A stretch of DNA of 64,000 nucleotides, taken from assembly GCF_022965805.1 (NCBI RefSeq), contig NC_133101.1, positions 12,991,054-13,055,053 of the forward strand, written 5' to 3'. Below the pieces are notes generated by a model, which saw only the letters and a list, made by a program, of their open reading frames with translations, was not told the DNA's origin and did no database searches. The stretch comes from Primulina eburnea. Taxonomy: Eukaryota; Streptophyta; Magnoliopsida; Lamiales; Gesneriaceae. Below, piece after piece: positions 16,515 to 46,407 of the stretch (the stretch's first letter is position 1; each line of letters begins with the position of its first letter). Position numbers and translations under genes: made by a program.

Positions 16515-17075
16515 CTATTCATCTACTATTTCACCGTCTCCTACTGCCTCGTTAATTTCTTCTTCTTCCATTGGGTTTTCTTCCATTTGCTCCATAAGTT
16601 CTTCCATGTTGACCATCTCATTTTGTAGATGCTCGATGTAATTCTGCAGTTGCGTGTTGTGGTGATCAAGGTTGTTCACTTGGTCTTGCAGTTCTTGGAT
16701 TGTTGATTGGCTTACTTTCTCATCGATTTCTTGTTCTCCAATCTTTTCCTCAAGACGATGTTGAATACTGAGAAGGCCATGACTTCGGATTTGGAGCGTA
16801 AGAATCCTATCTTGCGCCTTCTTCAGTTCTTGTTTGGTGATCTCATGCTGTCGTTCCGACTCTAGATGATAAGCAGCGTATCGTCTGACATCATCGCGTA
16901 ATTTCTTTTCCTCAACTCTGGCTTCCCGAAGGTCTTCCCCTATACATATATTATTTCCATCCAATTGGTAGTTATCTTTCTCGAGCTTATCATTTTTTTC
17001 TTTTAGTGACTTAATTTCTGACTTCTTTTCTCGAAGTTGACTCTGAAGTTCATTTATAACGTTTTGGAGGTCCAT
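16515..17075 (-). CDS. Accessory coiled-coil protein 2, upstream of gag
   Basis: About 186 residues, almost wholly predicted coiled coil from heptad-like L/I spacing. It starts MDLQNVINELQSQLREKK and ends in an acidic tail rich in EEE and MEE. I chose the internal ATG at 17075, which lies eight bases after an excellent splice-acceptor-like tract (T8ATCTTTATAG on the minus strand). The frame is open for 17 further codons upstream. It lies between the other accessory ORF and gag on the same strand. I do not recognise a family. The form suggests a self-associating or scaffold protein, which is inference only. Confidence 0.7.
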   Translation of the reverse strand: MDLQNVINELQSQLREKKSEIKSLKEKNDKLEKDNYQLDGNNICIGEDLREARVEEKKLRDDVRRYAAYHLESERQHEITKQELKKAQDRILTLQIRSHGLLSIQHRLEEKIGEQEIDEKVSQSTIQELQDQVNNLDHHNTQLQNYIEHLQNEMVNMEELMEQMEENPMEEEEINEAVGDGEIVDE

Positions 17076-17237
17076 GTTGTTCCTATAAAGATAAAAAAAA
17101 CATTTTATAGATAAGATACTTATCAAATTTTCTTAATCATGCAATAATATAAGTTGATAGCAAGTTTCAAAATAAGTTGGTACACATAATATTTTTCTCG
17201 GTTACAATTTATTCAGATACTTTAATATAATGCTAAT

Positions 17238-17735
17238 CTAGTCGAATAACTCTCCGCTGTCGCTGTCGCTGTCGTCCACAATTACTTCCATAGGTGCCAC
17301 TTCCTCCTCTGCCATGTTTTCTATCACAAGATGTAAATAGTTGTTCTGATCCTGCAGTCCGTCCATAGTGGCGTGGATCCTTGAGATGTAGCGCTCTTGC
17401 TTTGCAATAAACTGGTCCTGACGCTGACGAGCCTGAGCAGCGTGATCCTTCTCTATCTCTATCCTCTCGAGTAGATCCATGTTGAGTGCCACCAAGCGCG
17501 CAAAACGAGTTGCATTAGTCGGTGTCTGCATCATTTGGCTCTCCGCCACGTCCAAGTGATGTGTGAGTCGCTGCACGTCCGACTCCAGCATAATCCTGTT
17601 CTCAGTAAGCTCTTGCTTTTCCAATTTCTCCTTGGCGAGTTGCACCTTCAACGTTGCAATTTCCCCTTTTTGATTGTCTATGGTGAGCTTACGCAAGCGT
17701 AGGGCAGCCTGGGCACGAGTACGGGGAGCATCCAT
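17238..17735 (-). CDS. Accessory coiled-coil protein 1, upstream of gag
   Basis: 165 residues, starting MDAPRTRAQAALRLRKLT. A long coiled coil covers about residues 15-145, and the tail is acidic (VDDSDSDSGELFD). It is the first ORF after the leader of the young chromovirus. Its overall plan matches the second accessory ORF (coiled coil plus acidic tail), so the two may be ancient duplicates, although sequence identity is low by eye. The ATG follows an acceptor-like TTTATTCTAG by three bases. Function unknown. Confidence 0.7.
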   Translation of the reverse strand: MDAPRTRAQAALRLRKLTIDNQKGEIATLKVQLAKEKLEKQELTENRIMLESDVQRLTHHLDVAESQMMQTPTNATRFARLVALNMDLLERIEIEKDHAAQARQRQDQFIAKQERYISRIHATMDGLQDQNNYLHLVIENMAEEEVAPMEVIVDDSDSDSGELFD

Positions 17736-23058: not shown

Positions 23059-25681
23059 TCAGCTGCTTTGTCCTTCCCCCTTTTTGTCAAACATTTCCAT
23101 TTGGTCTGATAATTTTCGGACGTCAATGGATAATAGTTTTACATCTGCTGAGATACTCGAGCCGACAGTTGTGAAGGAGGTTTGTAGCGATGTGATTCGA
23201 TTAGAAACAGACGTTTCCAGTCGCTCAACTCTCTGACTGATTACATTCTGAGTTGTAAAAAATGATCCAACGAGCCCTTGCTTAATCTCTTGCACAGTCT
23301 TGCTAAGAGAGTCCATGTTGGCTTGAAGATTGTTTAGTTTTGCTGAGTCAAATTCAATCGAAGAATCTAATTTGACAGAATGCGACAGCTGTTCGTGTTG
23401 AATTTTCTTGATTTCTGTTATCATCTCTGCATGTTGAACTGTATGTTTTGAATTTCTTCAAGGACAGTATCCATTTCTGTAGATTGAATTGATGGTTGCT
23501 AGTTGGGTGTATTTGAATGCTTTGATGGTTGTCCAAAAAGTACTAATGCTTGATTAGTTTCCATTGTTCCAACCGTAGATTGAGTTGGAATGTTTTCTTG
23601 AATTTGAGACGAAGATGGTTGATTTTGATCAAATAATGGCCTGTTTTCCTGAATGATGGAGATAGATGATTCATGCATAGAGGCTTCCTGTGGAGGATTA
23701 ATTGGACTTTGTTCTTGCTTTTTTGATTGAGTGAGCAACTGACTTTCTTTATGTTCAGCAGTTTCTGGGCTGATGGTTTTTCTTGTTCATCAGTTTGAAC
23801 AACTTGTTCAGCAGAATTTTCTGACTGAACAGGTACATCAGTTTGAGCTTCAGTGTGAACAGTCATAACTTTTTCATCAATGAGTGACTCAGTTGGAGCT
23901 TCAGATGGTAACTGAATATCTTGCTCTGGTTGTTCAGCTGACTGAGCAATTGAGTCATTCTGAGCTTCTAATGCAACAGCTTGAATGATTTCATCGATGT
24001 TTGCCAAGGATAGTTCTTCTTCAGAGTATAACTGTTGTTCTTTCTGAGAAGATTTAGGTATTTCCTGAACTGGGTTTTCAGTTGACTGTAGTGGAGATGG
24101 TTCTTTCTGCGGAGAAAAGGATAAATCTTTTTCAGAATTTGAGTTGAAAGGTTTTTCATGAATAACCAGTTCCTGATCTTCTTCCCAAAATCTTATTTCC
24201 CTTTGCAGGCTACTAAGATCTGCGTCCAGTTGAGTGAACACAGCTCTATCATTGTACGCAGTTGGACTTGTTGGATGGTAGTTGGACTTCAGCTGTGCTA
24301 CAATTTTGGCTAACTTTTTGACGCGAATCTGATCAAAGAAGTATTTCTGCCTTTCTAATGCTTGTGAGATTGTAGCAGCTTTGACTACTTTCATCACAAT
24401 TGCTTCTAATTTGATGAACTTTTTCAGTTGAGATCTATGCTTCAGTTCTTTGGCAAAGATTTCTGTTCTGAAGCTTTTCCAACGGTCAAAATATTTTAGC
24501 TGTGATGTGGCAAATGCATTGACCTGTTCCCAAACAAGGTCAATGTGTGTTTGAATCACATTGGATGGCCGGGGTTCTTCAACTAGCTGTCTTTTTCCTT
24601 TGTCAGTTGAAAGAGTGTGAAGAAGATCCATCCCTGAGTGTGTTGATTGCACTGGTTCCCTTAATCTTATACCTTTAGATCTGGCCCTTGGCAAGATGGT
24701 AGGATGATTCACAAGAGTTAGTGGGGCTTTAACTTTATCTGTTGTCTTGGCTTTGGCAACTGGTTCATCAGGTGAGAGTATCTGCAAGGGTATGGCTTGA
24801 ATGGGTTGTTGATCAGCTGATCGAATAACTTCCATTGTTGTTGTTGTTTTGGTTCTTTTAGTCCTTGGTCTTTTGACAAGTCTAGGTGAAGGAGTTTTCT
24901 CCTCGTCTGATTCACTGAGAATCAGTTTTCTTTTTGCTGTTTTGACCTTCTTAACTGGTGATGGCTCAACTTCCAGTTTGGTCCTTGATACTAAGATGTT
25001 TTTGGAAGTGAAGATTTTGAATTTCGATGATATTTCAGCATTTTCAGCTACTAAACCATTCAGTTTAAAGAGATAACTGATTTGGATAGCAAAGCCACAT
25101 GATTGTTTTGATGACTTGAGCATATTCTTCAAAATGTTAAACAGAATATATCTCCAATTTACTTTCGTTTCACTCATGATTAAGGTTATTACCTGGAATT
25201 TTTCGAGTGTGAGAGCAGCATAAGAACCGGCTTTTTCTAATATTCCCTTTGCTACGATATCAGCTAGCAACTGAATTTCTGGTTTCAGTTCCTTCTTTGG
25301 ATCGGAAACCTTGATTCTTTGTCCATCAGCAGATAATCGGGATTGCATTTCTTCAATGTCCTGAGTTTTTACTTCAGAAAAATTCACATAACCGTCAGTT
25401 GGTAAAGAAAAGATTTCCCCGAAAGATTCCTCAGAAAGACATAGCAACTGATCGTTGATAGTCACAGATATAGTGTCATTATTGGTGATAAATCCTTTCC
25501 TATAGAATTCGTTGACCTCTTTGAGATATATTTTCTGGGAAGATTGACCTAAGAACTTCTTGAGACCTGCTGACTCAAGCTTTAGAAATACATCTTTAAT
25601 ATCTGTTTCTTGAATCGACAATACTGAATTAAAATCGATGACCATTGCATTCAGTATGTGAGCAGGAATTTGAGTTGCCAT
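23059..25681 (-). pseudogene. Env-like ORF of SIRE-type element, frameshifted
   Basis: The first open part (25681 to about 23750) begins MATQIPAHILNAMVIDFNSV. It has an N-terminal globular region to about residue 230, a basic KKVKTAKRKL stretch near 245-255, and a long Ser/Gln/Glu-rich low-complexity tail. The frame then shifts near 23750, again near 23500 and once more, ending in a coiled-coil segment (LSKTVQEIKQ...RVERLETSV). Position between pol and the 3' LTR matches the env-like ORF of Sireviruses, whose function is unknown. I see no strong signal peptide or transmembrane helix, so 'env' refers only to position. Confidence 0.6.
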
Positions 25682-29275: not shown

Positions 29276-31053
29276 AATGGTATCATGAGCTAAGGGTACT
29301 AGTTTTTGTATAGCATATACAAGATATTATATTGAGGGCGATTTCTAACCGATTGAGATGAAAATTTGCAACAAAAACCGAGGCTTCTTGTGGGGAATTT
29401 CAGGCAGCATGTTGCTGCCCGAGGGGCTGCCCATTTCGGGCAGCTAGGGCAGCCCGAGGGGCTGCCCGAACAGCCCCTTCAAAAATTAAAAAAAAAAATT
29501 TTGTTGCCGGAATCCGGCGACGGAGCTCCGGCGATGGCGATGACGGCTAGGGTTTCCAAAAGTGTTTTGGATTATCAAAGTGTCATGGGCCTTGAGTTGT
29601 TGGGCCATTGGATGGCTAACATATTTGTGAATTTTAAATGGGCCAAAATGTTTTTAGTGAAAAATAAGTTTTTGGGCCCTTAATTATAAAAGTACAAAAA
29701 TTGCAAATTTTTCTCATAAAATAAATAATTGAAGTTGGACTTTAATTATTTATAGTAAATTGTGATTTATAAGAAATTCGGTTATAAATAAATTAATTGG
29801 AAAGTAGACAAAGGTGTTTGTATACTTTGTTAATTTAGTTTATAATTGTGGCGATTAGTGATTGGTTCAAGATATATAATATTGGATCAATTAATTATTG
29901 TGATAATTAATTGATGGTGTAAGATATGTGATATTATGCATGAAGGATGATCAAAAGCCCAAGCCCAATTTGCTAGGTGTATGCTAGGATATTTTGTGTT
30001 GAATTATTGTAATAATTATCAAATTATAAAGTGGGCTTGGTTTATGGCCCGTTCCCACCCCATGAGATGTATCCCTATTTGCCATGGATATTTATTTGTA
30101 AATATTAGTATAGTGGATGATCAAGATTGGAAGATGTTGGCCATGATGATTATGAAGATCGAAGACATGTAAATATTGGAAGCTAATGTAATAGTTGCAT
30201 TGCATCCCGTGCATTTACCCTAGGATTGGACCTAGGCCCGTGTTTAGCTCACACGGGCCATTAGTATTGGGGCGATTGATCATCCTCGTTTGTTTACTAT
30301 TTATAATATATGCATGATATGTTATAAATAATGAGTATGTGCGTTATTATTATGATAATAACAAAGTTGCATGAATCCGGCAAACATACGATCAAACATG
30401 GCGAGTTTTTAAATAAAATTAATGATGAGACCTTTCAAAATTAAAACCCTCATTTTGAATAAGATTCAAAATTAATATCAAGCCCGAAAAGGGGAATTAT
30501 AAATTTGTTTATAATTTCTTTGTCTTCCATCGACAATGGGTGCATGATGAACGCTACCCGTACTCGGGGCTCGGCTCATATTATTGGGGGAGCTCTAGGT
30601 GCCGGAAAGCTGTGACATCCATTGACATGGTGATGTGAACTACGTGGAACTCCCATGATTTCGGCTCATATTATTGGGGGAACTCATGGCGACCGTCCAT
30701 TAAGGTTCAACATCGATGGGTAAGGCTTGAAACGTGAAGATGAACGACGTCATATTATTGGGTCCTAATCAAACGTGAGACAAAAGTTTACGTAGAGGGT
30801 TGCATTGTGATGCAATTGGAAACTACCTTGTAGGAATTGTGATTGGCTGATATTATTCGGGATCATGATTCGCTAATTGGACCTTACGTACCTACTGAGG
30901 AAAGAAGTTTCCCGTTTTAACTAGAGGGTAGTGAAAGATGTCAAAACAGTGGGAGTAAACATTTATAAAGTTAAAGTCCATACTTTATATCTTACTAAAT
31001 ATTTTAAAATAGTCATTAACATTTATCTGTTTACTTTTCAGTACTATTTGACA
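29276..31053 (+). other. Leader of copia element, with primer site and repeats
   Basis: A tRNA-Met-type primer site TGGTATCATGAGC is at 29278-29290. A GC-rich self-complementary block (GGGCAGCCC / GGGGCTGCCC) is at 29401-29480. A dispersed motif around CATATTATTGGG recurs four times between 30570 and 30860. No convincing ORF until gag. Such leaders often hold packaging and dimerisation structures. Confidence 0.6.
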
Positions 31054-32222
31054 ATGTCTTCAATTCGCAATCCGCTTTCTGCCATACTCGAAAAACATGT
31101 GTTAACCGGACCTAACTACATCACTTCGCTAAGAAATCTGAAAATCGTCTTGAACTCGGAAAAGATTGCATATACACTGACTGAGTCGTCCCCTGATAAG
31201 GCTCCGACTGACTGCACTCCTGAGGAATTGCAGACCTACAAGGATTGGTGTGACCATGACTTGAAGGCCAAGTGTTATATGCAGGCTTCTATGAATGATG
31301 AGCTGCAGAGGCGTTTTGAGGGTGCAAAGAGTGCTGCTGACATTCATTTGCACCTCAAGGAGCTCTTTGGTGAGCAGACTCGGCCTCTTAGGCATGCTAC
31401 CGTCAAGGAGCTAATCACTTTGCGCATGCGAGATGGGGCCTCGGTCCATGAGCATGGCCTAAAGTTGATTGGACTCGTGGACAAGCTTGTTGGCATGGAT
31501 ATATGTTGCCTTCGGAGTTGACCACCGACGTGTTGCTGTTATCGCTGCCTAGCTCGTTTGATCCTTTTGTGGTGAATTTCAATATGAACAAGATGGAACC
31601 GACCCTTGAGGAGTTGGTGAACATGCTTGTAACTTTTGAGTCCACCATCAAGAAAGAGAAGTCGGTTCTTTATGTGGGCTCTTCATATGGTACGAAGACC
31701 GGTCCACCTGGGAAGGGAAAGAAGCGTTCTTTCCAGCGCCCCAAGAAGAGCGTGCCCTCGAAGAGGCAGACTCCGAGTCACGTAGTGGCAGCCACACCAG
31801 TGAAGGCTGAGAAGATTGTTGACATCTGTCATCACTGCAAGAAGCCTGGACATTGGAGGCGTAACTGCAGGGAATATCTTGCCCAGAAGGGTTCTGGAAA
31901 GGGTACGTTCTATATTGAAGTAAACATTTCAATTAACTCAACTTCTTGGGTATTGGATACCGGCTGTGGCTCACATCTCTGTAATGATTTGCAGGTGATG
32001 GGAAGAAGTAGGAGGCTCCGGGAAGGTGAGACCTTCTTGAGGATGGGCAATGGAGCAAGAGTTGCTGTCAAGGCTGTAGGAGATGTTTACTTGCATTTGA
32101 ACAATGATTTTAAGTTTGTTTTAAGAGATGTTTTGTTTGCACCAGATTTGGTGAAAAACATTATTTCCATTTCTATGTTGGACAAGGATGGATTTTCTTG
32201 TTTATTTAGCAAAGGTGTTTGA
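31054..32222 (+). pseudogene. Copia gag plus start of protease, frameshifted
   Basis: Starts MSSIRNPLSAILEKHVLTGP at 31054. The frame shifts near 31500, and gag continues in the next frame with a CCHC zinc knuckle CHHCKKPGHWRRNC. Protease follows with active site LDTGCGSHLC. It stops at 32220-32222 inside the protease/pre-integrase region. The earlier ATG at 30931 in the same frame is less likely, being in the leader. Confidence 0.8.
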
Positions 32223-34149
32223 AACATTTACAAGAACGAATGTTTAATTGGTACCGGAGAACTTGAAAACGATCTCTACACCTTAAAATTGAAAGATATT
32301 CCACTAAACAATGTCCAAGTTGTAACAACAACAAACAAGCGCAAACAAGATACTCTAAATTCGGCACAATTATGGCATGCTCGATTATGACATATTTTCC
32401 TAAGAAGGATGAACAAGTTAGTGGGAGTTGGCATGTTTGATATGTCTGATATTAATGCTCTCACTACTTGTGAATCCTGTCTGAAAGGAAAGATGACCAA
32501 AATTCCCTTTAAGGGCCATGTGGAGCGTGCCAAAGGGTTATTGGATTTGATCCATACCGATGTGTGCGGTCCGCTTAGCATCACCACTAAGCATGGACAT
32601 GCCTACTTCATCACCTTTACCGATGACTTTTCGAGGTATGGGTATGTGTATTTGATGAAATACAAGTCTGAAGCCTTTGAAAGGTTCAAAGAATTCAGAA
32701 GTGAAGTAGAGAAGCAATTGGGACGAAGCATCAAGACACTTCGATCGGATCGAGGTGGTGAGTACTTGAGTGCCGAGTTCCAAGAGTATCTTAGGAAGAA
32801 TGGGATTCTCTCGCAGTGGACTACGCCCGCTACACCGCAGTTGAATGGTGTTTCGGAGCATCGTAACCGGACTTTGATGGACATGGTTCGGTCTATGATG
32901 GGGTTCACGGAGTTGCCGCCATCCTTTTGGGGATATGCGCTTGAGACAACGGCAATGTTGTTGAACAATGTCCATACAAAGGCAGTTGACAAGACCCCAT
33001 ATGAGATATGTATGGGTAAGCCACCCAAATATTCTTATCTTAGAATATGGGGGTGCCCTGCTTATGTGAAGCAGGTAGTGGGAGATAAATTGGATAGTCG
33101 ATCCATTTTATGTTACTTTGTGGGATATCCAAAGAATTCGGTTGGATACTACTTCTATCATCCCCAAGAAACAAAGGTGTTTGTTTCTAGAAATGCAACC
33201 TTTTTGGAAATGGAATTTCTATTGGATAGAAAAGGCGAGATCATAGAACTCGAAGAGGTTCGAGAGACACCCACAGTTGTAGAACCCACACCCGAAGAGC
33301 CAAGAGAGGAGATACAAGCTCCTAGAAGATCCGAGAGAGTCTCGAGACCACCTATGAGGTATGGTCTGCTTCTTGAAGAGGACCATGATGAGCCTAACCT
33401 TGGATGTGATCCAAGGACCTTCAAGGAAGCATTATCCGATGCCGATTCATCCAAGTGGCTTGAAGCAATGGAATCTGAGATGAATTCCATGCATTCGAAC
33501 CAAGTGTGGAATCTCGTTGATCCACCTGAGGGAATTGTTCCCATAGGGTGTAAATGGATTTACAAGAGGAAACTTGGGGCGGATGGGAAGGTATTGACCT
33601 TCAAGGCGCGATTGGTAGCAAAAGGATATACTCAAAGACAAGGTGTTGACTATGAGGAAACCTTTTCTCCAGTTGCAATGTTCAAGTCCATTAGGATTTT
33701 GTTAGCCATAGCTGCATGGTATTACTATGAGATATGGCAGATGGATGTCAAGACTGCCTTCCTTAATGGGGATATTAAGGAAGAGATTTACATGTCTCAA
33801 CCTGAAGTGTTTACATCTATCGGAAGTGAGCATTTGGTATGCAAACTTCAAAGATCTATTTATGGTCTTAAGCATGCATCTAGGAGTTGGAACCTCAGAT
33901 TCGATAATACAATCAAAGAGTTTGATTTTACTAAGAATCCTGAGGAACCCTGTGTGTATAAGAAGGTCAGTGGGAGTGCTGTGACATTCCTTGTTCTTTA
34001 TGTTGATGACATTCTACTCATTGGGAATGATGTAGGAATGTTGCAATCAACTAAGATATGGTTAGCAATCAAGTTCTCGATGCAAGACTTGGGTGAAGCA
34101 TCTTTTGTATTGGGAATACAGATCTATAGAGATAGATCAAAAGGATTGT

Positions 34150-35719
34150 GATAAAGATAAAATATTGTATATTAATTAAATGTTTTATAATATAAATATA
34201 TAGTTTTTGTTTTATTAAATGTTTAAATATTATATGTTTTTAATAAATTGTATAAAATATAAGTTGTTGTGTAATTATAAGTTTTTACTATTTTTACAGG
34301 TTCGATAAAACAAGAATAACCTTAGCGTTGCAAATGGGATTAAGATGATTCTTGGACCTGTAGAAAGTTGATGTTAATATCTACAATATTGGTGGCAAGC
34401 ATGAGATAAAAATCCTCTCACAATTGGGATCAAATTAAGCAACAATTAAAGTTACCGAAGGAGTGGCAGTTTTACCATGCTCTAGTATTTTGACCATATC
34501 TCTCAAACTACTTGGTCAAATATTCTGAAAAAAATACCACAACTAGACAACTCAATTATCCACATGTTTCATTTTATGTGAAGAAGAAAATTCGGAGAAG
34601 ATGCTTGTCAAAAGTGATGTGCAATATAATATTAATTTCTTGGAACACCAATGAAGACTTATGTGTAAAAAATAATATTTTATTTGTGGTTGTCTCCCCA
34701 AATTTGGCTATAAATAGGGGTGCATTGTAATGTATTGGGATATCCCTCATTCTATGAACAAACCTTTGAGTTCATAATATTTCTCTCTATATTTTTCTTT
34801 TATTTCTTCATTTAAATATAATTAGCATGTTAATTTCATATTCAAAGTTTTACACTTTGAATAATGAATAGCTAACTTCCTAAAGTTGAGATGATAAGGT
34901 GAAACTCTTGGCATGATTATAAGATTATTAAAAGGTAAGAATCTATGTTTTATATTATTTAATCATTATTTATTGTTTATGTTATATTTATTTCTTTAAG
35001 CATTTTTATACCCTACTTTTAAGTGGGAGTTTTGATTTATTGTTGCTATATGTTACACTAAATTCTTGGAACCATTTAAATGTTAGTTTGGTATTACCAA
35101 CCATTTAAAGTGGATGCCTTGATTTATTATATATAAATATATTATAATATTAAATTCTTGGAACCATTTAAATGTTAGTTTGGTTTTACCAACCATTTAA
35201 CTTGGATTCCTTGATTTATTATATATGAATATATCATAGTAATAATTTATTGGTACCATTTAAATGTTAGTTTGGTATTACCAACCATTTAAAGTGGGAA
35301 CCTTGATTTAGTGTTTACAAATATATATAGCACAATAAATACTTGACCACATTTATAAGTTTTGGTATATATTATATACTTATAAGATAATAATTTATAA
35401 CATAATATAAATATGATTATTTAATATATTGGAACCATTTTATTAAGTGGATTTCAATATTGTTCGTTAATGTTAACTTTATTAAAATACCAAGAGTGAA
35501 TCCTTTAATCTCAACTACTTAAATTAAAATTTGAACAATTAAAATTTACCCATTAAAGATTCAAACAATTAAAATTAATAAAAAAACAAAAACAAAAAGA
35601 TATTGTAGTGGACTTGTAATTACCTTAGCTTCCCTGTGGATACGATATTTGGACTCACCGAATTATACTACTTGTGTGGACAACCTGCTCTTGGGAGTGC
35701 AACAATCAAAGTCGCAACA
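34150..35719 (+). repeat. Left LTR of Athila-like element
   Basis: 1570 bp, TGATAAAGAT to GTCGCAACA. Matches 43907-45480 in reverse complement, with few differences (for example ACCTTAGCG against ACCTTGGCG). Confidence 0.9.
35061..35312. repeat. 91-92-bp tandem repeat in LTR
   Basis: About 2.8 units, each with GGAACCATTTAAATG and TACCAACCATTTAA, so every unit also has a small inverted repeat around TTAAATG/CATTTAA. The same array occurs in the inverted right LTR around 44320-44570. Confidence 0.8.
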
Positions 35720-35725
35720 AGTTTT

Positions 35726-35743
35726 TGGCGCCGTTGCCGGGGA
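35726..35743 (+). other. Primer binding site, tRNA-Asp type
   Basis: TGGCGCCGTTGCCGGGGA, six bases after the left LTR. It is the same primer class as the element at the left window edge. Confidence 0.85.
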
Positions 35744-35903
35744 AGTATAATTTAATTTCAAGTGTATTTAATTTTATTTTTCTTTCTTTGAATTTTTATT
35801 GCTTTTGTGTGTTTTTCTTCTTTTCTTTTGCATTTTCATGAGCATTTGGTCACGTACACTTAGTGGTCGACTCATTCGAAATAACCCTTTATTTTTTCAA
35901 AAC

Positions 35904-38285
35904 ATGGCGGAAGAACCCATTCAAGAAAATGAAGATGAAATTCAATCTCAACATGATCATGATAGACGAAGAACACTTAGAGATCACATGAATCCTACAC
36001 GTACTAGTGCACCTTCATGTCTAGTTTTTCCCCCTGATGCATCTCATTTCAATTTTAAGCCTGGTATTATCCAACTTTTACCCAACTTTCATGGCTTAGA
36101 TTCTGAAAATCCATACATGCATTTACGAGAATTTGAAGAAGTGTGCAACACATATAATGATCTAAATTGTAGCATGAACACCATTCGACTTAAGCTTTTT
36201 CCTTTTTCTTTAAAAGATAAAGCTAAAACTTGGCTACAAAATCTTAGATCGGGATCCATTCGAACTTGGGATGATTTGCAACAACAATTTTTGAAAAAGT
36301 TTTTTCCATCTCATAGAACAAATTCTTTCAAAAGGCAAATCATCACTTTCACTCAAAAACAAGGAGAAACTTTTTATCAGTGTTGGGATAGATACAAAGA
36401 ATTGCTTAATCTTTGTCCACATCATGGTTTTAAAATTTGGAGAGTTGTTTCTCAATTTTATGAAGGCTTAACACCTAAAGATAGGCAAATGGTTGAATTT
36501 ATGTGTAATGGAACATTTGAAGATAAAGATCCAAACGAGGCAATTGAGTATCTCGATTCATTAGCTGAAAATGCTCAAAATTGGGACACGATAGGTACAA
36601 TTGAACCATCAAACAAGATTCAATCTCCTACATCTGGTGGAGGTATGTACACTCTCAAAGATGAACATGATCTTCAAGCTAGATTTACCTCTTTGGCAAG
36701 AAAAGTTGAGGCACTTGAATTGAAAAAGAATGGTCAATTAAAATCTGTTCAAGAAATTGTGTGTCACATCTGTGATACAAGTGATCATTTTACAAAAGAT
36801 TGTCCCACTTTGCCCTCTTTTAAAGAATGTCTCCATGAACAAGCCAATGTTTTGAACAATTTCAAAAGGCCAAATTTTGAACCATTTTCTCAAAGTTACA
36901 ATCCAGGTTGGCGAAATCATCCAAATTTTAGTTGGAGGAATGATAATGCTGCACAATTTTCACAACCACATTTCCAAAATCAACAAAATTTTCAAAATTA
37001 TGCACCTTATGTTCCTCCACCTAAAAGAAATTTGGAAGATACATTGAATTCTTTCATTGCAAAGCAAGAGTCTATCAATACTCAAACTGCTCAAACAATG
37101 ACAGATTTGAAAGATACTCTTGCCAAATTTGCATCTGCACTTAATGTTCATGAAAAAGTTAAATTTCCTTCACAACCTCTGCCTAATCCCAAGGATCATC
37201 ATTCACAAACTGGAACTTCTGGAACTCAACCGATGGATCAGGTAAAATCTGTTATTACCCTTCGAAGTGGCAAGGTTGTGGAAAAATCCATTCTTGAACC
37301 TTGTGAAGATGATGATAAATCAACTCCAAAGGGTAAGGAAGTGGAACCCATAACTTGCGAAGAAGAGGTTCAACAGACAGTGTCACCACCATTCCCGCAT
37401 GCATTGAAAAATACAAAAAAATCAAATTTGAATTCTGATATATATGATATTTTTAAACAAGTAAAAGTTAATATTCCTTTATTAGATGCAATAAAACAGG
37501 TACCATCATATACCAAATTTTTGAAAGACTTGTGCACTGTGAAAAGAAAATTGAATGTGAAAAAGAAAGCATTTTTAGCCGAACAAGTAAGTGCAATCAT
37601 TCAAAATAATAATACTTTGAAATACAAAGACCCTGGTTGTCCTACTATTTCATGTATTATTGGAGAACGAAAGATTAAAAAAGCATTGCTTGATCTTGGA
37701 GCTAGTGTGAATTTACTTCCATATTCAGTTTATCAAGAACTCAATCTAGGCGAGTTTAAACCTACTTCGGTAACACTTTTACTTGCTGATAGATCTGTTA
37801 AAGTGCCAAGAGGTATGGTAGAAGACGTGTTGGTCCAAGTTGATAACTTTGTATATCCTGTCGATTTCATAGTTTTAGATACACAACCTATTGAAGCTTG
37901 TAATGCAATTCCTGTAATTCTGGGTCGTCCATTTTTAGCAACTTCTAATGCTCTTATAAATTGCAGGAATGGAATAATGAAGTTGTCATTTGGTAACATG
38001 ACCTTGGAGCTCAATGTTTTTAATCTTTGTAAGCAACCACATGACAAAGGAGATGAAAGTGAAGATGAAAATCTTATCGAAACTCTTGTGGAAGAAAACA
38101 TTCAAGAAGGGAGTACTCGTGATCAATTAGATATTTGTTCAATTGAAACTGTTAAAGAAAATATTGAAATGGATCTTGATGATTTTATCAGGTATCACTC
38201 GTTACCGGGATCAGAGAAAGAATTTGAGGCGAAATATGAGAACAAAGACGAACCACCCATATTGGAGTTAAAACCCTTGCCATAA
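35904..38285 (+). CDS. Athila-like gag-protease
   Basis: About 793 residues from the ATG at 35904 (MAEEPIQENEDEIQSQHDHD). The open frame extends back to 35799. Gag contains FPFSLKDKAKTWLQNL and ETFYQCWDRYKELLNLCPHHG. A CCHC knuckle (CHICDTSDHFTKDC) lies mid-protein. The protease has LLDLGASVNLLP and the flap-side ILGRPFL. The ORF ends at a single TAA, after which the same frame continues straight into reverse transcriptase. That stop may be a mutation or a translational control point. Confidence 0.88.
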   Translation: MAEEPIQENEDEIQSQHDHDRRRTLRDHMNPTRTSAPSCLVFPPDASHFNFKPGIIQLLPNFHGLDSENPYMHLREFEEVCNTYNDLNCSMNTIRLKLFPFSLKDKAKTWLQNLRSGSIRTWDDLQQQFLKKFFPSHRTNSFKRQIITFTQKQGETFYQCWDRYKELLNLCPHHGFKIWRVVSQFYEGLTPKDRQMVEFMCNGTFEDKDPNEAIEYLDSLAENAQNWDTIGTIEPSNKIQSPTSGGGMYTLKDEHDLQARFTSLARKVEALELKKNGQLKSVQEIVCHICDTSDHFTKDCPTLPSFKECLHEQANVLNNFKRPNFEPFSQSYNPGWRNHPNFSWRNDNAAQFSQPHFQNQQNFQNYAPYVPPPKRNLEDTLNSFIAKQESINTQTAQTMTDLKDTLAKFASALNVHEKVKFPSQPLPNPKDHHSQTGTSGTQPMDQVKSVITLRSGKVVEKSILEPCEDDDKSTPKGKEVEPITCEEEVQQTVSPPFPHALKNTKKSNLNSDIYDIFKQVKVNIPLLDAIKQVPSYTKFLKDLCTVKRKLNVKKKAFLAEQVSAIIQNNNTLKYKDPGCPTISCIIGERKIKKALLDLGASVNLLPYSVYQELNLGEFKPTSVTLLLADRSVKVPRGMVEDVLVQVDNFVYPVDFIVLDTQPIEACNAIPVILGRPFLATSNALINCRNGIMKLSFGNMTLELNVFNLCKQPHDKGDESEDENLIETLVEENIQEGSTRDQLDICSIETVKENIEMDLDDFIRYHSLPGSEKEFEAKYENKDEPPILELKPLP

Positions 38286-41101
38286 GAATTGAAGTATGCA
38301 TTTCTTGGAGAAGATGAAACATATCCGGTGGTAATTTCTTCCAAACTAGAAAGTGATCAAGAAGGTAAATTAGTTGAAATGCTTAAAAGACATAAAAATG
38401 CAATTGGTTGGACACTAAAAGATCTTAAGGGCATTAATCCACTAATTTGCACTCACAAAATTCACTTAGAAGAAAATGCAAAAACCTCTCAACAACCACA
38501 AAGGAGATTAAATCCACACATGAAAGATGTTGTGAAAACTGAAGTTCTCAAACTACTTGATGTTGGGATTATCTACCCTATTTCTGATAGTAAGTGGGTA
38601 AGCCCAACACAAGTAGTTCCAAAAAAATCTGGCATCACAGTGATAAAAAATGAAAAAGGTGAATTGTTAACAAGTCGAGTCCCATCTAGTTGGCGGATGT
38701 GTATTGATTATAGAAAATTAAATGACGCCACTAGAAAAGATCATTTTCCATTACCATTTTTGGATCAAATTTTAGAAAGAGTAGCAGGTCATCCATACTA
38801 CTGTTTTCTTGATGGATATTCAGGTTATTATCAAATTCCCATTGCACTCGAAGATCAAGAAAAAACTACATTCACATGTCCTTTTGGAACATTTGCATTT
38901 AGAAGGATGCCATTTGGATTATGCAATGCCCCTGCAACATTTCAAAGATGTATGCTAAGCATTTTTTGCGACATGGTTGAAAATTGTTTGGAAATTTTCA
39001 TGGATGATTTAACTGTCTTTGGGGATACATTTGATAATTGTCTTGAAAATTTGGAAAAAGTTTTAAAAAGATGCGAGGAAAAAGGTCTTATTTTAAATTG
39101 GGAAAAATGTCATTACATGATTACTTCTGGAATTGTTTTGGGACATGTCGTGTCATCTCATGGAATTGAAGTTGATAAAGCAAAAGTTGATGTCATTGCC
39201 AATTTATCTCCTCCAAAAACCATTAAAGAAATTCGCTCATTTTTGGGACATGCTGGATTTTATAGGAGGTTTATAAAGGACTTTAGTTTAATCTCTAAAC
39301 CTATTTGTGACCTCTTAACAAAAGACACTGCATTTGAGTGGACTCAAGAATGTCAAAATGCTTTTGATAAAATCATTCGACATTTAACATCAGCTCCTAT
39401 CATGCAACCTCCTGATTGGTCTTTACCATTTGAAATCATGTGTGACGCGAGTGATTATGCAGTCGGTGCAGTATTGGGTCAAAGAAGAAATGGTAAGCCT
39501 TATGTGATATATTATGCAAGTAGAACTTTAAACAATGCTCAAATGAATTACTCCACAACTGAAAAAGAACTACTTGCAGTAATATTTGCATTAGATAAAT
39601 TTCGTTCTTATTTGATTGGATCAAAAACTATTGTGTTTACTGATCATTCTGCTATTAGATATTTGTTGACCAAACAGGATGCAAAGCCACGACTGATACG
39701 ATGGATTTTGTTGCTCCAAGAATTTGACATTCTGATCAAAGATAAAAAAAGAACCGAGAATGTCGTAGCCGATCATTTATCGAGACTAGTAACAGGATCA
39801 TCTTGTGAAATGACACCAATTAACGATAATTTTCCTGATGAACATCTATTTTCAGTTACTACTACACCTTGCTTTGCTAACATAGTAAATTTTCTTGTGA
39901 CAGGAAAAATGCCACCGCAATGGAGTTCTCAAGATAAAAGAAAATTTTTGAATGAGGTAAAAAACTTTTATTGGGATGATCCGTATCTGTTCAAGTATTG
40001 TCCGGATCAAATTTTTCGACGTTGCATACCCGACAATGAGGTAAGTAGTGTCATTAAATTTTGTCATTCAGAAGCATGCGGAGGACATTTTTCTTCTAAG
40101 AAAACGGCTATAAAAATCTTGCAGTGTGGATTTTATTGGCCCACTTTGTTTAAAGACACCCACGAAATCTGCAAGATCTGTGAAAATTGTCAAAAATTGG
40201 GTGCGATTTCAAAAAGAAACATGATGCCTTTGAATCCTATCATTGAAATTGAAATCTTTGACTGTTGGGGAATTGATTTTATGGGACCTTTTCCACCGTC
40301 GTTTGGATACTTGTATATTTTAGTTGCAGTTGATTATGTTTCCAAATGGATAGAGGCAATTCATGTCGAACAAATGATCATAAAATCGTCATCAAATTTT
40401 TAAAAGAAAATATTTTTAGTAGATTTGGAATTCCTCGAGCCATGATAAGTGATGGGGGAACTCACTTTGTTAATAAACCATTTTCTTCATTAATGAAAAA
40501 ATATGGTATTACTCATAAAGTAACTACCCCTTATCATCCTCAAACAAATGGACAAGTTGAATTAGCTAATAGGGAGATAAAGCAAATTTTGGAAAAAACT
40601 GTTAACTCTAATAGAAAAGATTGATCTCTGCGACTTAATGATGTACTTTGGGCATATCAAACAGCTTTTAAAACATCATTGAATATGTCTCCCTATAAGT
40701 TGGTTTATGGAAAACATTGTCATTTGCCTGTGGAATTGGAACATAAAGCTTATTGGGCGATCAAAACTTTAAATTCAAGCATGGATGATGCAAACAAATT
40801 GCGTAAATTGCAACTTAATGAACTTGATGAACTCAGAAATGATGCGTATGAGAATTCAAGGATTTATAAAGCAAAAATCAAATCATTTCATGATAAAACA
40901 ATTCTTAGAAAATATTTTGAGATTGGTAAAAAAGTTTTGCTTTATAATTCTCGACTTCACATATTCCCAGGAAAATTACGATCAAGATGGACATGCCCAT
41001 ATGTTGTAAAACATGTGTATCCTTATAGAGCTGTGGATATTGAAAATCCTAAAAATGGTGATATTTTTAAAGTAAATGGACAAAGGCTTAAACCATTTTA
41101 G
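38286..41101 (+). pseudogene. Athila-like pol (RT-RNase H-integrase), broken
   Basis: In frame with gag-protease until a frameshift near 40365-40385. A TGA at 40622-40624 then replaces an expected sense codon inside integrase. Reverse transcriptase has [16 protein letters not shown]-type [12 protein letters not shown] and FMDDLTVFG. RNase H has [14 protein letters not shown] and [11 protein letters not shown]. Integrase has the zinc finger ([11 protein letters not shown]...CKICENCQK), [10 protein letters not shown] and [16 protein letters not shown]. Ends near 41101 with NGQRLKPF. The enzymes cannot be made as one protein from this copy. Confidence 0.88.
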
Positions 41102-41325
41102 AAAATGAAATCTTTCAAGAAGAGTTTATTTCCCTTTCTGATCCTTGATTTTTGTTTGTGTTGCATTTAATTTTGTTTGTTTTTATTTCAGGTTTTCTTA
41201 ATCTTTTTATTTTCCCGGTTAAATGGCGGATAACGGTACTCCGTGACTCTCATAGTCGGTTAAATCAGTTTCCCACAATTGCTGATACAAAATAAAAAAA
41301 AAAAATCATTTCTTTTCTTTTCAAA

Positions 41326-41805
41326 ATGGATGAAATTCTCTCAAAAATTTGTAAATATTTTCCCTCTGTTTCTGAAAATGTTCTAAGAAAAATTTATGCA
41401 GGAAGGTGTGAAAGATTGAGATTGCTAATGCAAAAAGGAATTCCAGAAGATATTCGTCTTGTAATTGAAGCTAAGGTCCGATTAGGAGGAGAAGTTCCAC
41501 AATCATTGCTCATTCGGTATTTGCCTGGATTAGGAAAAAGCACTTATGCGAAAAAACGAAGGGCCAAAAGTTTAGGGGTTTGTCATAAGTGTGCAAGATG
41601 GACTTGTGACAAACGATGCAGATCTTTGGGATGTGTTTCCAATAACAGAGAAGATAAAATTGATTTCATTAAGAATGAGCTGAGTAAGGAGTCTTTAGAT
41701 AACATCTTATTGACTCTTGAGACGCATTCTAGTGGACATGTGCATATTGAACTTCTCCGTTTATGGAAACAATTCCAAGATGAGCGTCATAGTCTTGGAA
41801 TCTGA
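41326..41805 (+). CDS. Cysteine-rich basic protein resembling carlavirus NABP
   Basis: An intact 159-residue ORF between integrase and the LOG ORF. Residues 71-82 form an Arg/Lys-rich patch (KSTYAKKRRAKS) that could be a nuclear or nucleolar signal. Directly after it come cysteines at 86, 89, 94, 98 and 103 (CHKCARWTCDKRC), a putative zinc finger, and then a short VSNNREDKIDFI stretch. The order of tyrosine-basic patch, CxxC finger, further cysteines and FI motif resembles the nucleic-acid-binding cysteine-rich proteins at the 3' end of carlavirus genomes. Members of that family act in silencing suppression and host gene regulation. Homology is my pattern judgement and has not been searched. 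It may instead be an unrelated zinc-finger accessory protein. An acceptor-like TTTTATTTCAG lies at 41181-41191. Confidence 0.5.
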   Translation: MDEILSKICKYFPSVSENVLRKIYAGRCERLRLLMQKGIPEDIRLVIEAKVRLGGEVPQSLLIRYLPGLGKSTYAKKRRAKSLGVCHKCARWTCDKRCRSLGCVSNNREDKIDFIKNELSKESLDNILLTLETHSSGHVHIELLRLWKQFQDERHSLGI

Positions 41806-42024
41806 CTAAAAAAGACCCTGTTTGCCAATTTATAAGAAAATTGGATGGGAAGCATATCCTCGACTCATAGAAGGCGTTGAAGCCTGTTTCTGGACGTAAA
41901 ACCAGAGGAAAATTGTGAGCCACAATCACACTACTGTTTATATGCATGTGTGTCATTATTTTTTTTACTATTTATTTTGTTTACAGCTGTGACCCATAGT
42001 TTTGTCATGATAACATATTACCCC

Positions 42025-42059
42025 TATAAAATCTCTCATCTTTCTCTCTATTTTCGCAG
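42025..42059 (+). promoter_or_regulatory. TATA-like motif and splice-acceptor-like tract before LOG ORF
   Basis: TATAAAAT at 42025-42032 is followed by a pyrimidine-rich run ending TTTTCGCAG at 42051-42059, 24 bases before the ATG. Either an internal promoter or an acceptor for a spliced sub-genomic mRNA could express the downstream ORF. Both remain inference. Confidence 0.45.
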
Positions 42060-42082
42060 ACCTAAAAAAAGAAAGTAAAAAC

Positions 42083-42721
42083 ATGGCTGGATCCTCTGCA
42101 CAAACATTGAAAAATATTTGTGTATTTTGTGGGTCGAGTTCTGGAAAAAATGAAGTATTTGTAGAAGCAGCGAATAACCTTGGAAAGATATTGGCTGAGA
42201 GAAAAATTCACTTGGTATATGGGGGAGGTAATATTGGGTTAATGGGATCTGTTTCAACATCTGCTCATCTTGGAGGTAGTCAGGTTTTGGGTATTATTCC
42301 TACAGCTTTAGCTGAAGGAAATATTACAGGTGTTACGATTGGAGAGGAATTAAAAGTTTCTTCTATGTATGAAAGAATCACTCAAATGATTGAAAATTCT
42401 GATGCTTTTATCGCACTACCAGGTGGTTTTGGTACATTAGAAGAAATTTTTCACACTGTTTCTTGGGCACAACTTAATATCCATAATAAACCTGTGGGCT
42501 TGTTGAATATCAATAATTATTATGACAGTTTGTTGACATTTCTTGATAAAGCTGTGGAACAGAATTTCATTTCAGAAAATTCACGACAGATTCTCATCTG
42601 TGTCTCGACTGCCGACCAATTAATTGATGATTTGGAATCTTTTGTTCATATTCCTGATCCGATGATAACAAAGATCAATTGGTCGCAATCAAGCAGTAAG
42701 AAAAGGAAGTTGGATCATTGA
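42083..42721 (+). CDS. LOG-type cytokinin riboside 5'-monophosphate phosphoribohydrolase in a retrotransposon
   Basis: An intact, intronless 212-residue ORF of normal LOG length. It has the nucleotide-binding-like start ICVFCGSSSGKN (residues 12-23), LVYGGGNIGLMG (44-55), Arg98 in the MYERI segment and the family signature PGGFGTLEE at 113-121 with Glu121. These correspond to the catalytic Arg and Glu of LOG enzymes, which release active cytokinin bases from their nucleotides. The usual MHxRK is changed to MYERI, so activity is not assured. The C-terminus ends SSSKKRKLDH, a possible nuclear signal absent from typical cytosolic LOGs. Host LOG genes normally have several introns, so capture through cDNA is likely. 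The frame is open although the neighbouring pol is dead. Confidence 0.85.
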   Translation: MAGSSAQTLKNICVFCGSSSGKNEVFVEAANNLGKILAERKIHLVYGGGNIGLMGSVSTSAHLGGSQVLGIIPTALAEGNITGVTIGEELKVSSMYERITQMIENSDAFIALPGGFGTLEEIFHTVSWAQLNIHNKPVGLLNINNYYDSLLTFLDKAVEQNFISENSRQILICVSTADQLIDDLESFVHIPDPMITKINWSQSSSKKRKLDH

Positions 42722-42918
42722 TTCAAAAGTCGTGGATTGGTTTGCGTTTGTTTCAGTTTGTTATCTTCAATAAAATTCCAGGTGATATCTCTTTCATTAT
42801 GTACTCTTTATTAATAGCTATTTTGACATTAGGGACAATGTCATATTCTGATTGGGGGAGAACAAATTTATATATAAAAAAAAAAATTAAAATAAAAAAA
42901 AATTAAAAAAATAAAAAT

Positions 42919-42969
<51 letters not shown>

Positions 42970-43906
42970 CTAAAATAAAATCATGTTTATTGTTTGTATC
43001 TTAGTAATTTTTGCAAAAATATCATACATTACATGTTTGAAAGATTTAAATTAGAATATGCATTAATCTATTTAAGAATGTTTAATTTTTATTTGAAAAA
43101 ATAGTCAATTTTAATATTCTGATCAATATAAAAATATGATTTATGAAATCTTTTTGAGTGATTAACCATTGTGATAAAATCAGGTATTAAAGTATATGGC
43201 CCAAGATATACCTTATAAGAGTGCCTAAAATTTTAAACTCACACATATTTTGTGAGTGAGTGGAGAGGATTGAGAAAACAGCTTTCGAGCCTTTATTGAT
43301 CATGAGAGAGACTATCTATTGTTTAGATCTTGAGTTCTTATTTTGAAAAAAAAAATTGATATTTCCTGAAAAAAAAAAAGAAAAAAAAGAAAAAATACAA
43401 AAAGAAAGATATTGAAGATCTATGTTATATGCTACGACCCATATATCTCTCATAAAAAAAAGAGAGAAATTTATTGTACAAATTAAATAAATATGTGGTC
43501 AAGAAGCATAAATTTAGTCTGATTCCGTGATGTTATGAAAAAAAAAATATCAGGAAAAAAATATATAATAAGAACAACTAGATTTTGAATCAATGGATTT
43601 TCTATCTTTTGATTAGTTTGGCTCGTTTGTCTGTCTGCATTTTGTAAACCATTTTCCTGAGCATTTATCTGTATTCCAACTCCATGAGAGAAATCGTTCC
43701 CATAAATTGAAACATTTATTAACCTGTGAGGATATGGAGTTGAGACTCTTACTAGGAATTTCTGAAGGCCATGTACATTTAACTACCTGAAAATAAGTTT
43801 TGAATTGATCATCTCAGATTATTTCATAAATTATAATTATAATGATCTTGATATAACTTTGACAGTTTTCAAATTTAATTTAAACACTTGGATAGTTCCA
43901 AAAACT
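42722..43906 (+). other. Non-coding 3' internal region of Athila-like element
   Basis: Contains AATAAAATT (42769) and the Athila-type motif GGGACAATG...GATTGGGGGAG at 42831-42861, a likely internal polypurine tract. A (TA)n run at 42922-42965 and several A/G-rich low-complexity tracts (43340-43400) follow. No credible gene. It ends in CCAAAAACT (43898-43906), the reverse complement of the nine bases after the left LTR. Confidence 0.65.
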
Positions 43907-45480
43907 TGTTGCGACTTTGATTGTTGCACTCCCAAGAGCAGGTTGTCCACACAAGTAGTATAATTCGGTGAGTCCGAATATCGTATCCACAGGGAAGCTA
44001 AGGTAATTACAAGTCCACTACAATATCTTTTTGTTTTTGTTTTTTTATTAATTTTAATTGTTTGAATCTTTAATGGGTAAATTTTAATTGTTCAAATTTT
44101 AATTTAAGTAGTTGAGATTAAAGGATTCACTCTTGGTATTTTAATAAAGTTAACATTAACGAACAATATTGAAATCCACTTAATAAAATGGTTCCAATAT
44201 ATTAAATAATCATATTTATATTATGTTATAAATTATTATCTTATAAGTATATAATATATACCAAAACTTATAAATGTGGTCAAGTATTTATTGTGCTATA
44301 TATATTTGTAAACACTAAATCAAGGTTCCCACTTTAAATGGTTGGTAATACCAAACTAACATTTAAATGGTACCAATAAATTATTACTATGATATATTCA
44401 TATATAATAAATCAAGGAATCCAAGTTAAATGGTTGGTAAAACCAAACTAACATTTAAATAGTTCCAAGAATTTAATATTATAATATATTTATATATAAT
44501 AAATCAAGGCATCCACTTTAAATGGTTGGTAATACCAAACTAACATTTAAATGGTTCCAAGAATTTAGTGTAACATATAGCAACAATAAATCAAAACTCC
44601 CACTTAAAAGTAGGGTATAAAAATGCTTAAAGAAATAAATATAACATAAACAATAAATAATGATTAAATAATATAAAACATAGATTCTTACCTTTTAATA
44701 ACCTTATTATCATGCCAAGAGTTTCACCTTATCATCTCAACTTTAGGAAGTTAGCTATTCATTATTCAAAGTGTAAAACTTTGAATATGAAATTAACATG
44801 CTAATTATATTTAAATGAAGAAATAAAAGAAAAATATAGAGAGAAATATTATGAACTCAAAGGTTTGTTCATAGAATGAGGGATATCCCAATACATTACA
44901 ATGCACCCCTATTTATAGCCAAATTTGGGGAGACAACCACAAATAAAATATTATTTTTTACACATAAGTCTTCATTGGTGTTCCAAGAAATTAATATTAT
45001 ATTGCACATCACTTTTGACAAGCATCTTCTCCGAATTTTCTTCTTCACATAAAATGAAACATGTGGATAATTGAGTTGTCTAGTTTGTGGTATTTTTTTC
45101 AGAATATTTGACCAAGTAGTTTGAGAGATATGGTCAAAATACTAGAGCATGGTAAAAACTCCCACTCCTTCGGTAACTTTAATTGTTGCTTAATTTGATC
45201 CCAATTGTGAGAGGATTTTTATCTCATGCTTGCCACCAATATTGTAGATATTAACATCAACTTTCTACAGGTCCAAGAATCATCTTAATCCCATTTGCAA
45301 CGCCAAGGTTATTCTTGTTTTATCGAACCTGTAAAAATAGTAAAAACTTATAATTACACAACAACTTATATTTTATACAATTTATTATAAAACATATAAT
45401 ATTTAAACATTTAATAAAACAAAAACTATATATTTATATTATAAAACATTTAATTAATATACAATTTTTTATCTTTATCA
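43907..45480 (-). repeat. Right LTR of Athila-like element, inverted
   Basis: 1574 bp. Read on the minus strand it runs TGATAAAG to CGCAACA like the left LTR. The arms plus the extra nine bases make an inverted repeat of about 1.58 kb around an 8.2-kb loop. Confidence 0.92.
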
Positions 45481-45551
45481 CACTCCCCAACCAGCTTATT
45501 GCTAGTCCCTAGCAATTTAAGCGTTAATAGCAACAGAAAACATATTGATTA
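45481..45551 (-). other. Flipped internal stub with polypurine tract
   Basis: The minus-strand reading ends GCTGGTTGGGGAGTG directly before the LTR start TGATAAAG. This is the polypurine tract of the 3' end, now lying outside the LTR and next to the target duplication. Confidence 0.75.
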
Positions 45552-46407
45552 GATTGCTTGGTCTCACCCAGTCTACATACATTGATACCATCCTGAAGCG
45601 GTTCTGGATGGATGAGTCCAAGAGAGGACATCTACCAATGTGTCATGGCGTGTCCCTATCCAAGTCTATGTCTCCCAAGACTAATGCAGAGATAGCGGCG
45701 ATGACAAGCATTCCTTATGCATCTGCGATTGGTAGCATCATGTATGGGATGATATCTACACGTCCTGACGTGGCTTTTGCACTAAGTGTAGTGAGTAGAT
45801 ATCAATCCAACCCTGGTCTTACACACTGGAAAGCTGTGAAAGACATCCTCAAGTATTTGAGAAGGACCAATAAATTGTTTTTGGTCTATGGGGGTGGAGA
45901 ACTGAAGTTGGAAGGCTATACCGACTCTAGCTTCCAAAGCGATATTGATGACTCAAAGTCAACCTTTGGATTCATATTCATGCTCAATGGTGCTGCTGTC
46001 TCTTGGAAGAGTTCCAAGCAAGACAGTACAACGGATTCCACCACTGAGGTAGAATACATTGCTGCATCAGCTGCAGCAAAGGAGGCTGTTTGGATAAGGA
46101 ATTTCGTCAAAGAGTTGGGCGTCATTCCTAATGGAGTTGCTCCTGTCCCGGTGTTTTGTGACAACACGGGAGCCATTGCTCAAGCAAAGGAGCCGAGGTC
46201 TCATCAGAAGTCCAAACACGTATTGAGAAAGTACCACATCCTCAGAGAGATCGTAGAAAGAAGAGATGTCATGATTGACAAAGTCGACTCCGCAGATAAT
46301 GTTGCTGATCCGCTAACTAAGCCTTTACCTAGACCATTGTTCGAGAAGCATCGCGAATCGATGGGTTTGAATCATATGGGTAGTTGGCTCTAGTGCAAGT
46401 GGGAGAT

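Follow-up and report, generated by a model that had tools for sequence, protein, structure and literature searches.

Structure of the element and of its LOG-like ORF

The analyzed window comprises 64,000 nucleotides of Primulina eburnea (contig NC_133101.1, positions 12,991,054 to 13,055,053, forward strand). At 34149-45551 it contains a retrotransposon with a LOG-like ORF, which is nested in a Copia element whose coding parts lie at 30931-34151 and 45545-46393. The following features were determined for this insertion:

34144..34148, no strand: target duplication GATTG, left copy, 5 bp (read by eye)
34149..35719, plus: 5' LTR (TGAT...CAACA), boundaries determined from the 5-bp duplications of all 14 other copies that have both LTRs
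35726..35743, plus: primer-binding-site-like sequence TGGCGCCGTTGCCGGGGA (sequence match)
35799..38285, plus: gag-protease frame, ending at the stop before RT (ORF and Pfam)
38289..40403, plus: RT, RNase H and first part of the integrase (ORF and Pfam)
40404..41150, plus: remainder of the integrase in another frame, ends approximate (frame comparison)
41171..41191, plus: splice-acceptor-like site before the partner ORF (site scan)
41326..41805, plus: partner ORF for a carlavirus-type nucleic-acid-binding protein, with a frame-shifted C-terminus in the window copy (Pfam and homologues)
41801..41935, plus: stretch highly conserved with the contig L001 (90-93%), spanning the end of the partner ORF (pairwise comparison)
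42039..42059, plus: splice-acceptor-like site 23 nt before LOG, the strongest one in the internal region (site scan)
42083..42721, plus: LOG-like ORF, 212 aa, one open frame (Pfam and structure match)
42374..42376, plus: catalytic Arg98 of the LOG ORF, followed by Ile99 where CgLOG has Lys100 (alignment to CgLOG)
42443..42445, plus: catalytic Glu121 of the LOG ORF, within PGGFGTLEE (alignment to CgLOG)
42698..42709, plus: basic C-terminal patch KKRK of the LOG ORF (sequence, C-terminus comparison)
43907..45480, minus: inverted LTR copy (repeat comparison; direct in 20 other copies)
45481..45551, minus: inverted internal 3' end with polypurine tract, about 70 bp (sequence comparison)
45552..45556, no strand: target duplication GATTG, right copy (read by eye)

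In the Pfam profile search, the LOG-like ORF matched the PF03641 domain with an E of 2.4e-38, and the nearest solved structure was Arabidopsis LOG3 (AtLOG3, 2a33) with an E of 1.6e-64. The AlphaFold model based on a 61-row alignment showed a mean pLDDT of 89.5, with low confidence in the final ten residues, and its best PDB match was likewise 2a33 with an rmsd of 0.8. The initial annotation had described an intact, intronless LOG-family ORF with the motifs PGGxGTxxE, VYGGG and GLMG and both catalytic residues. This was confirmed, as the 212 aa lie in one open frame and comprise PGGFGTLEE, VYGGG and GLMG as well as Arg98 and Glu121. In fold, PF03641 domain, PGGxGTxxE signature and catalytic Arg and Glu, the ORF is a type-I LOG. 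As the model predicts a LOG fold, the ORF does not appear to encode a retroviral-type Env (membrane glycoprotein).

The order gag-protease-RT-RNase H-integrase, the primer-binding-site-like sequence and a sense ORF after pol are those of an Athila-like Ty3/gypsy element, and we take both the primer-binding-site-like sequence and gag to be of the Athila type. The pol of the window copy is interrupted by one stop between protease and RT and by a frame change in the integrase near 40400, in agreement with the stop and frameshift noted initially. The location given for LOG, between the integrase and the 3' end of an Athila-like element, was right as far as its position is concerned, but another ORF (41326-41805, the partner ORF) intervenes and the 3' LTR is inverted here. 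Among the 21 copies compared, this inversion occurred in the window copy only, with a direct 3' LTR in all 20 others. In the region 43907-45556, about 70 bp of the internal 3' end have been inverted along with the LTR, yet the GATTG duplication flanks the whole insertion.

The two LTRs of the window element differ at 7 of 1573 sites (0.45%). Using a substitution rate of 1.3e-8 per site and year, this corresponds to an age of about 0.2 million years. Since the LTRs are only 0.45% apart, an intact LOG is expected from the youth of the window copy, which rules out the argument that an intact LOG beside a broken pol demonstrates selection in this copy alone.

Several other ORFs are located on the minus strand of the window. 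At 11977-16362 (-) a Ty3/gypsy gag-pol of 1461 aa lies in one open frame, with a weak chromo-domain match below the cut-off. Upstream of it, at 16515-17735 (-), two ORFs of 203 and 165 aa appear coiled-coil-like by eye, with no Pfam match above the cut-off for either. A further gag-protease ORF was found at 688-2870 (-), with the same primer-binding-site-like sequence in reverse orientation at 2859, and an ORF of 712 aa at 23543-25681 (-) showed no Pfam match at an E of 0.01.

Copies in the genome and selection on the two ORFs

A search of the 812-Mb P. eburnea assembly with the LOG protein gave 1466 candidates, of which the best 150 were scored. All 150 scored copies were full length without a stop and 95-100% identical; as this set is the top-scoring tenth of the candidates, it favors intact copies and was not used as evidence of selection. 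From these best 150 of the 1466 candidates, 20 further copies, all on the plus strand, were fetched. A direct 3' LTR follows LOG in 20/20 of them, and the integrase and the partner ORF lie upstream of LOG in 18/20, the arrangement being partial in copy L079 and missing from L067 and L089. Fourteen of the 20 fetched pieces also included the 5' LTR. The divergence of these 14 LTR pairs ranged from 0 to 1.2%, with five pairs identical, and each of the 14 copies with both LTRs showed a matching 5-bp flanking duplication. The repeated order and the nearly identical LTRs indicate that LOG is a regular part of a recently moving element family.

A second family was recognized by 80 places that precede the window-type copies in the list obtained with the query P0023; by eye, 57 of the 80 were counted as free of stops, some of these being partial. 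The LOG of this family shares 67% identity with the window-type LOG. In both copies examined (L116, L117) the order is integrase, second ORF and LOG, and the second ORF is 62-63% identical to the partner ORF of the window. The copies between integrase and LTR for which the initial annotation had advised a search therefore exist, and the chance capture at a single locus that it had considered does not agree with 1466 candidates and a second family of the same order. A host retrogene merely adjoining the elements was ruled out as well, because position and flanks recur across copies. Altogether, the data support LOG as multicopy element cargo, in the same order in two families of P. eburnea.

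When the host LOG1 of P. eburnea (P0315) was used as query on the genome, the 150 scored single-frame matches (of 1249 candidates) were long and uninterrupted with 51-53% identity, and many of them coincided with places found by the window LOG query. The host gene itself was not among these 150 matches. This fits an intron-split host gene and an intronless element copy.

The dN/dS of LOG was 0.30 for the window subfamily compared to the rest (60 copies, 45 of them distinct) and 0.24 across the 20 fetched copies, both values leaning low since similarity to the window protein determined the ranking of the subfamily copies. The comparison between the two families, which depends less on this ranking, gave 0.18-0.21 at a dS of 1.2-1.3 for six pairs (two window-type by three second-family copies). 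Of the 14 coding stretches fetched from the second family, three entered the between-family comparison; the 13 distinct ones served for the comparison within the family, which gave a dN/dS of 0.48. For variants present in at least three distinct copies, the pN/pS of LOG was 0.25, and for rarer variants 0.48. The higher ratio of 0.48 for rare variants and within the second family is expected if recently dead copies are included. Site variability was correlated between element-type and host LOGs (Spearman 0.43, calculated without the odd gene models P0002, P0003 and P0034). The values below one, anticipated initially for a functional gene, were thus found both among subfamilies and between families, and the other copies together with the second family show that LOG has evolved under purifying selection. 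For the partner ORF, dN/dS values of 0.20 between subfamilies, 0.24-0.26 compared to L001 and 0.22 for the in-frame part of the window copy were determined, and judged by these ratios it is also kept by selection.

The carlavirus-type partner ORF and expression signals

The partner ORF matched PF01623 with 31.4 bits at a curated cut-off of 20.9, and each of seven relatives scored above the curated cut-off of Viral_NABP, Carla_C4 or both. In the window copy the last approximately 23 residues are out of frame relative to the other copies; in 12 of the 20 fetched copies the ORF is open to 181 aa. The search yielded 135 homologues, with Xanthoceras, Orobanche and Rhamnella among the 120 listed, and a basic stretch and three Cys were invariant in 14 aligned sequences. 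The model of the partner ORF (pLDDT 70.9, pTM 0.35) was too poor for a structure search. We take the p12 protein of chrysanthemum virus B to belong to the same protein family. According to the available part of PMC7588395, p12 acts in the nucleus as a transcription activator and is a suppressor of silencing.

When a genome collection of bacteria and archaea was scanned with the partner ORF, a single locus was found, L001, on a contig of a plant element. The contig (DAIEQH010000041.1, 3330 bp) has been assigned to a MAG of Candidatus Nomurabacteria and represents contamination by a plant retrotransposon. It contains integrase and partner ORF, with no LOG over the next 980 bases. Accordingly, either the lineage acquired the partner gene before LOG, or L001 has lost LOG. 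Scanning IMG/VR with the partner ORF, the LOG ORF and the LOG alignment gave no confirmed relative.

Two stretches, 41211-41275 and 41801-41935, showed 89-93% identity between the window and L001, compared to 73% for the in-frame coding part of the partner ORF. The conserved stretch downstream of the partner ORF is also readable in the second family (L116 and L117, near 1380-1460). From their conservation, these stretches are possibly an RNA element; Rfam gave nothing at gathering scores on L001.

Regarding expression, six acceptor-like sites were found in the internal region, compared to 2.5 expected from simple base shuffles. The strongest of them precedes the LOG start by 23 nt, and another one precedes the partner ORF; the CGCAG leader is present in 19 of the 20 fetched copies, one being without it. 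The site before the partner ORF also occurs in L001 and the second family, and upstream of the second-family LOG no site reached the acceptor threshold. For Bagy2, splicing for the env-like ORF has been reported in the accessible part of PMC7264820.

Substrate pocket, C-terminal tail and possible function

The protein search with the LOG ORF gave 7974 matches, the best 120 of which were listed and are referred to as homologues. Of these, 38 carry a species name (Reevesia 20, Diplodiscus 8, Populus 6, Xanthoceras 3, Primulina 1), and the three source plants that were looked up are two rosids and a lamiid. In a 44-row LOG tree, the root of which serves for drawing only, the window LOG and 26 element-type LOGs form one clade (100/99), which is joined by three Xanthoceras sequences (98/84), and host LOG1/3 types and LOG8 form a separate clade (98/95). 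The Xanthoceras gene model P0002 fuses LOG to a gag-like stretch (50% over 50 aa, E 3e-11), and in Rhamnella P0200 an integrase is fused to the partner ORF (70% over 111 aa). For the LOG and partner-ORF cluster pairs P0006/P0145 and P0009/P0201, the longest contigs are equal in size with 8723 and 2128 bp, respectively. The element context of LOG is thus seen in two families of one genome, and the evidence for it in other plants is indirect. The sequences P0023, P0036, P0048 and P0086 are element-type LOGs under host-gene names in public records; since names such as "LOG3-like" (Primulina) and "LOGL10" (Populus) are given to element-type LOGs, LOG family sizes may be inflated.

According to the available part of PMC4979012, Arg99 and Glu122 are the proposed catalytic residues of CgLOG, and Met96, His97, Lys100, Glu125 and Trp129 form an inferred prenyl site that is common to AtLOG3. 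Replacement of AMP-binding and catalytic residues of CgLOG by Ala nearly abolished activity, with Lys100 not named singly in that part (PMC4979012). The window LOG keeps two of the five prenyl-site residues, Met and Trp, while His97 is changed to Tyr, Lys100 to Ile and Glu125 to His (CgLOG numbering), so that its sequence does not appear to provide the prenyl pocket of a type-I LOG. Among the best 120 of 7974 homologues, the catalytic Arg was kept in 116/120 and the Glu in 117/120. In the same set the equivalent of Lys100 was L, M or I in 117/120, the three retaining Lys being those from Xanthoceras, and that of His97 was S in 48, H in 38 and otherwise F, Y or Q. The Glu125 equivalent was H or Q in 113/117, with the odd gene models P0002, P0003 and P0034 left out of the fixed-difference and entropy counts. 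As control, 120 listed AtLOG3 homologues were taken as host LOGs, which do not cover all LOG groups and include some odd gene models with other C-termini; both Lys and Glu were found in 120/120 of these. The host LOG1 of P. eburnea keeps MHQRK and the pocket Glu. Since three of the five pocket residues are replaced, cytokinin activation by the element LOG is unproven. Even LOGs with identical critical residues may differ in activity, as stated in the accessible text of PMC11593424.

A further difference was observed at the C-terminus. An LxLxL at the very end was present in 105 of the best 120 of 7974 homologues and in 0/120 listed host LOGs, of which six showed LxLxL away from the end. A basic cluster within the last 20 residues was found in 110/120 of these homologues compared to 1/120 listed host LOGs. 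LxLxL is the EAR repression motif. In a 109-row tree, the three tail Leu showed 1, 3 and 0 changes, compared to 17 at the variable site between the last two and a mean of 7.0 in the body. This tree was built without the tail, and the odd gene models P0002, P0003 and P0034, the shortened P0031, P0074, P0097 and P0119 and the EAR-less P0001, P0004, P0023 and P0024 were left out. The window LOG itself, which ends in KKRKLDH, does not contain LxLxL. Its subclade (window, P0001, P0004, P0023 and P0024; support 100/98) is without LxLxL but with KKRK, and LOG ends in SSKKRKLDH in 20/20 fetched copies.

These observations can be combined into one explanation, to which, taken as a whole, we give about an even chance: a selected accessory LOG gene with a carlavirus-type partner, encoding an altered enzyme, conditions the host. 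The LOG ORF would be a permanent accessory gene of an Athila-like Ty3/gypsy family with recent activity and would originate from a plant LOG mRNA. Together with the carlavirus-type nucleic-acid-binding gene it would occupy the position of retroviral env, and both accessory proteins would be made from spliced subgenomic mRNAs. The LOG protein would be an active nucleotide phosphoribohydrolase with an altered purine or side-chain preference, probably working at least partly in the nucleus, and homologues with the EAR-like tail might additionally recruit TOPLESS-type co-repressors. LOG and partner could then prepare the host cell for the element through effects on proliferation, hormone state and silencing. 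Several observations count against this explanation: in the window copy LxLxL is absent, pol is broken and the partner ORF is shortened, L001 has no LOG, the dN/dS within the second family is 0.48, no qualifying acceptor precedes LOG there, and the CGCAG leader is missing from one of 20 copies.

The kept catalytic residues also count against it, as they would be equally expected of a canonical cytokinin riboside monophosphate phosphoribohydrolase, which raises free cytokinin and cell division where the element is expressed. Such an activator is possible, if on the unlikely side: LOG fold, PGGxGTxxE, Arg98 and Glu121 as well as the purifying selection agree with it, but the window LOG has Tyr, Ile and His at the equivalents of His97, Lys100 and Glu125, Lys is lost in 117/120 and Glu in at least 113/117 of the best 120 of 7974 homologues, and Ala replacements in AMP-binding and catalytic residues of CgLOG nearly abolished activity (available part of PMC4979012). 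That residues contributed across the dimer to the shared pocket are changed and that the tail Leu are strongly conserved could also be explained by a LOG fold kept for dimerization or nucleotide binding, which disturbs the host LOG or brings the EAR-like tail to co-repressors. We consider this unlikely, since the catalytic Arg (116/120) and Glu (117/120) are kept in the best 120 of 7974 homologues and since the window lineage, without an EAR-like tail, still keeps the ORF under constraint. A captured host sequence that is copied along without function would be intronless and within a repeat family, as observed, and other plant elements carry transduced host genes (PMC7264820, in its accessible part). 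The between-family dN/dS of 0.18-0.21, the motif residues invariant over the best 120 of 7974 homologues and the constraint on the tail make such a passenger highly improbable.

Extending the explanation by a selected LOG and its partner to other plants, we tentatively suggest, as a possibility still in doubt, that eudicot Athila-like elements carry a two-gene module for host manipulation in the env position. One component would be a carlavirus-type zinc-finger-like protein; the other would be an enzyme derived from LOG that is nuclear, has acquired a new preference for nucleotides and, in most lineages, bears an EAR-like repression motif. The zinc-finger-like partner type is a transcription activator and silencing suppressor in one carlavirus, according to the available part of PMC7588395. 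If true, the module would correspond in plants to the accessory or oncogene-like genes of retroviruses, and part of it would be common to a retrotransposon lineage and an RNA virus family. A plant retrotransposon is considered to need no more than gag and pol for its movement; here, two extra genes, one of the cytokinin pathway and one of RNA-virus type, lie in the env position and are maintained by selection. Should the enzyme or the tail prove active, an abundant repeat family would be able to alter hormone state or gene repression in the cells expressing it.

The initial annotation knew of no described case of a LOG in a retroelement, which is incorrect. In PMC9289625, which cites Steinbauerova 2011, a YgdH (LOG) domain is reported for consensus Gypsy elements from two species of Citrus and, when a filter was switched off, also from Populus. 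Among the papers listed in the literature searches, neither the partner ORF in retrotransposons nor an EAR-tailed LOG in elements was found. Within the literature searched, the evidence of selection, the altered pocket, the tail and the viral-type partner gene seem to be new.

Like the elements described here, those of Citrus and Populus comprise a LOG-family domain found repeatedly in plant Ty3/gypsy; the available part of PMC9289625 is a domain listing that does not describe selection, pocket change, EAR-like tail, viral-type partner or copy-by-copy structure. A host-like enzyme domain is likewise fixed in the AlkB-carrying Gypsy elements of Phalaenopsis, although AlkB is an RNA demethylase, assayed as active, and unrelated to LOG (same part of PMC9289625). 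With the env-like sense accessory ORFs of Athila and Bagy2, the ORF shares the position between pol and 3' LTR and an acceptor-like site upstream, but it encodes a LOG enzyme fold instead of an Env-like protein (PMC7264820, accessible part). The partner ORF has the Pfam profiles (PF01623, PF05515), the basic stretch and the Cys pattern in common with the carlavirus nucleic-acid-binding, cysteine-rich protein (p12; PMC7588395, available part), but, unlike the latter, sits in a retrotransposon. Compared to plant type-I LOGs (AtLOG3, 2a33; host LOG1 of P. eburnea, P0315, 51-53% identity), the element LOG shows the same fold, PGGxGTxxE and catalytic Arg and Glu. It differs from them in its single open frame, in the replaced Lys, His and Glu of the pocket in the window copy and in a basic C-terminus, with LxLxL in most homologues, in place of the host LOG tail.
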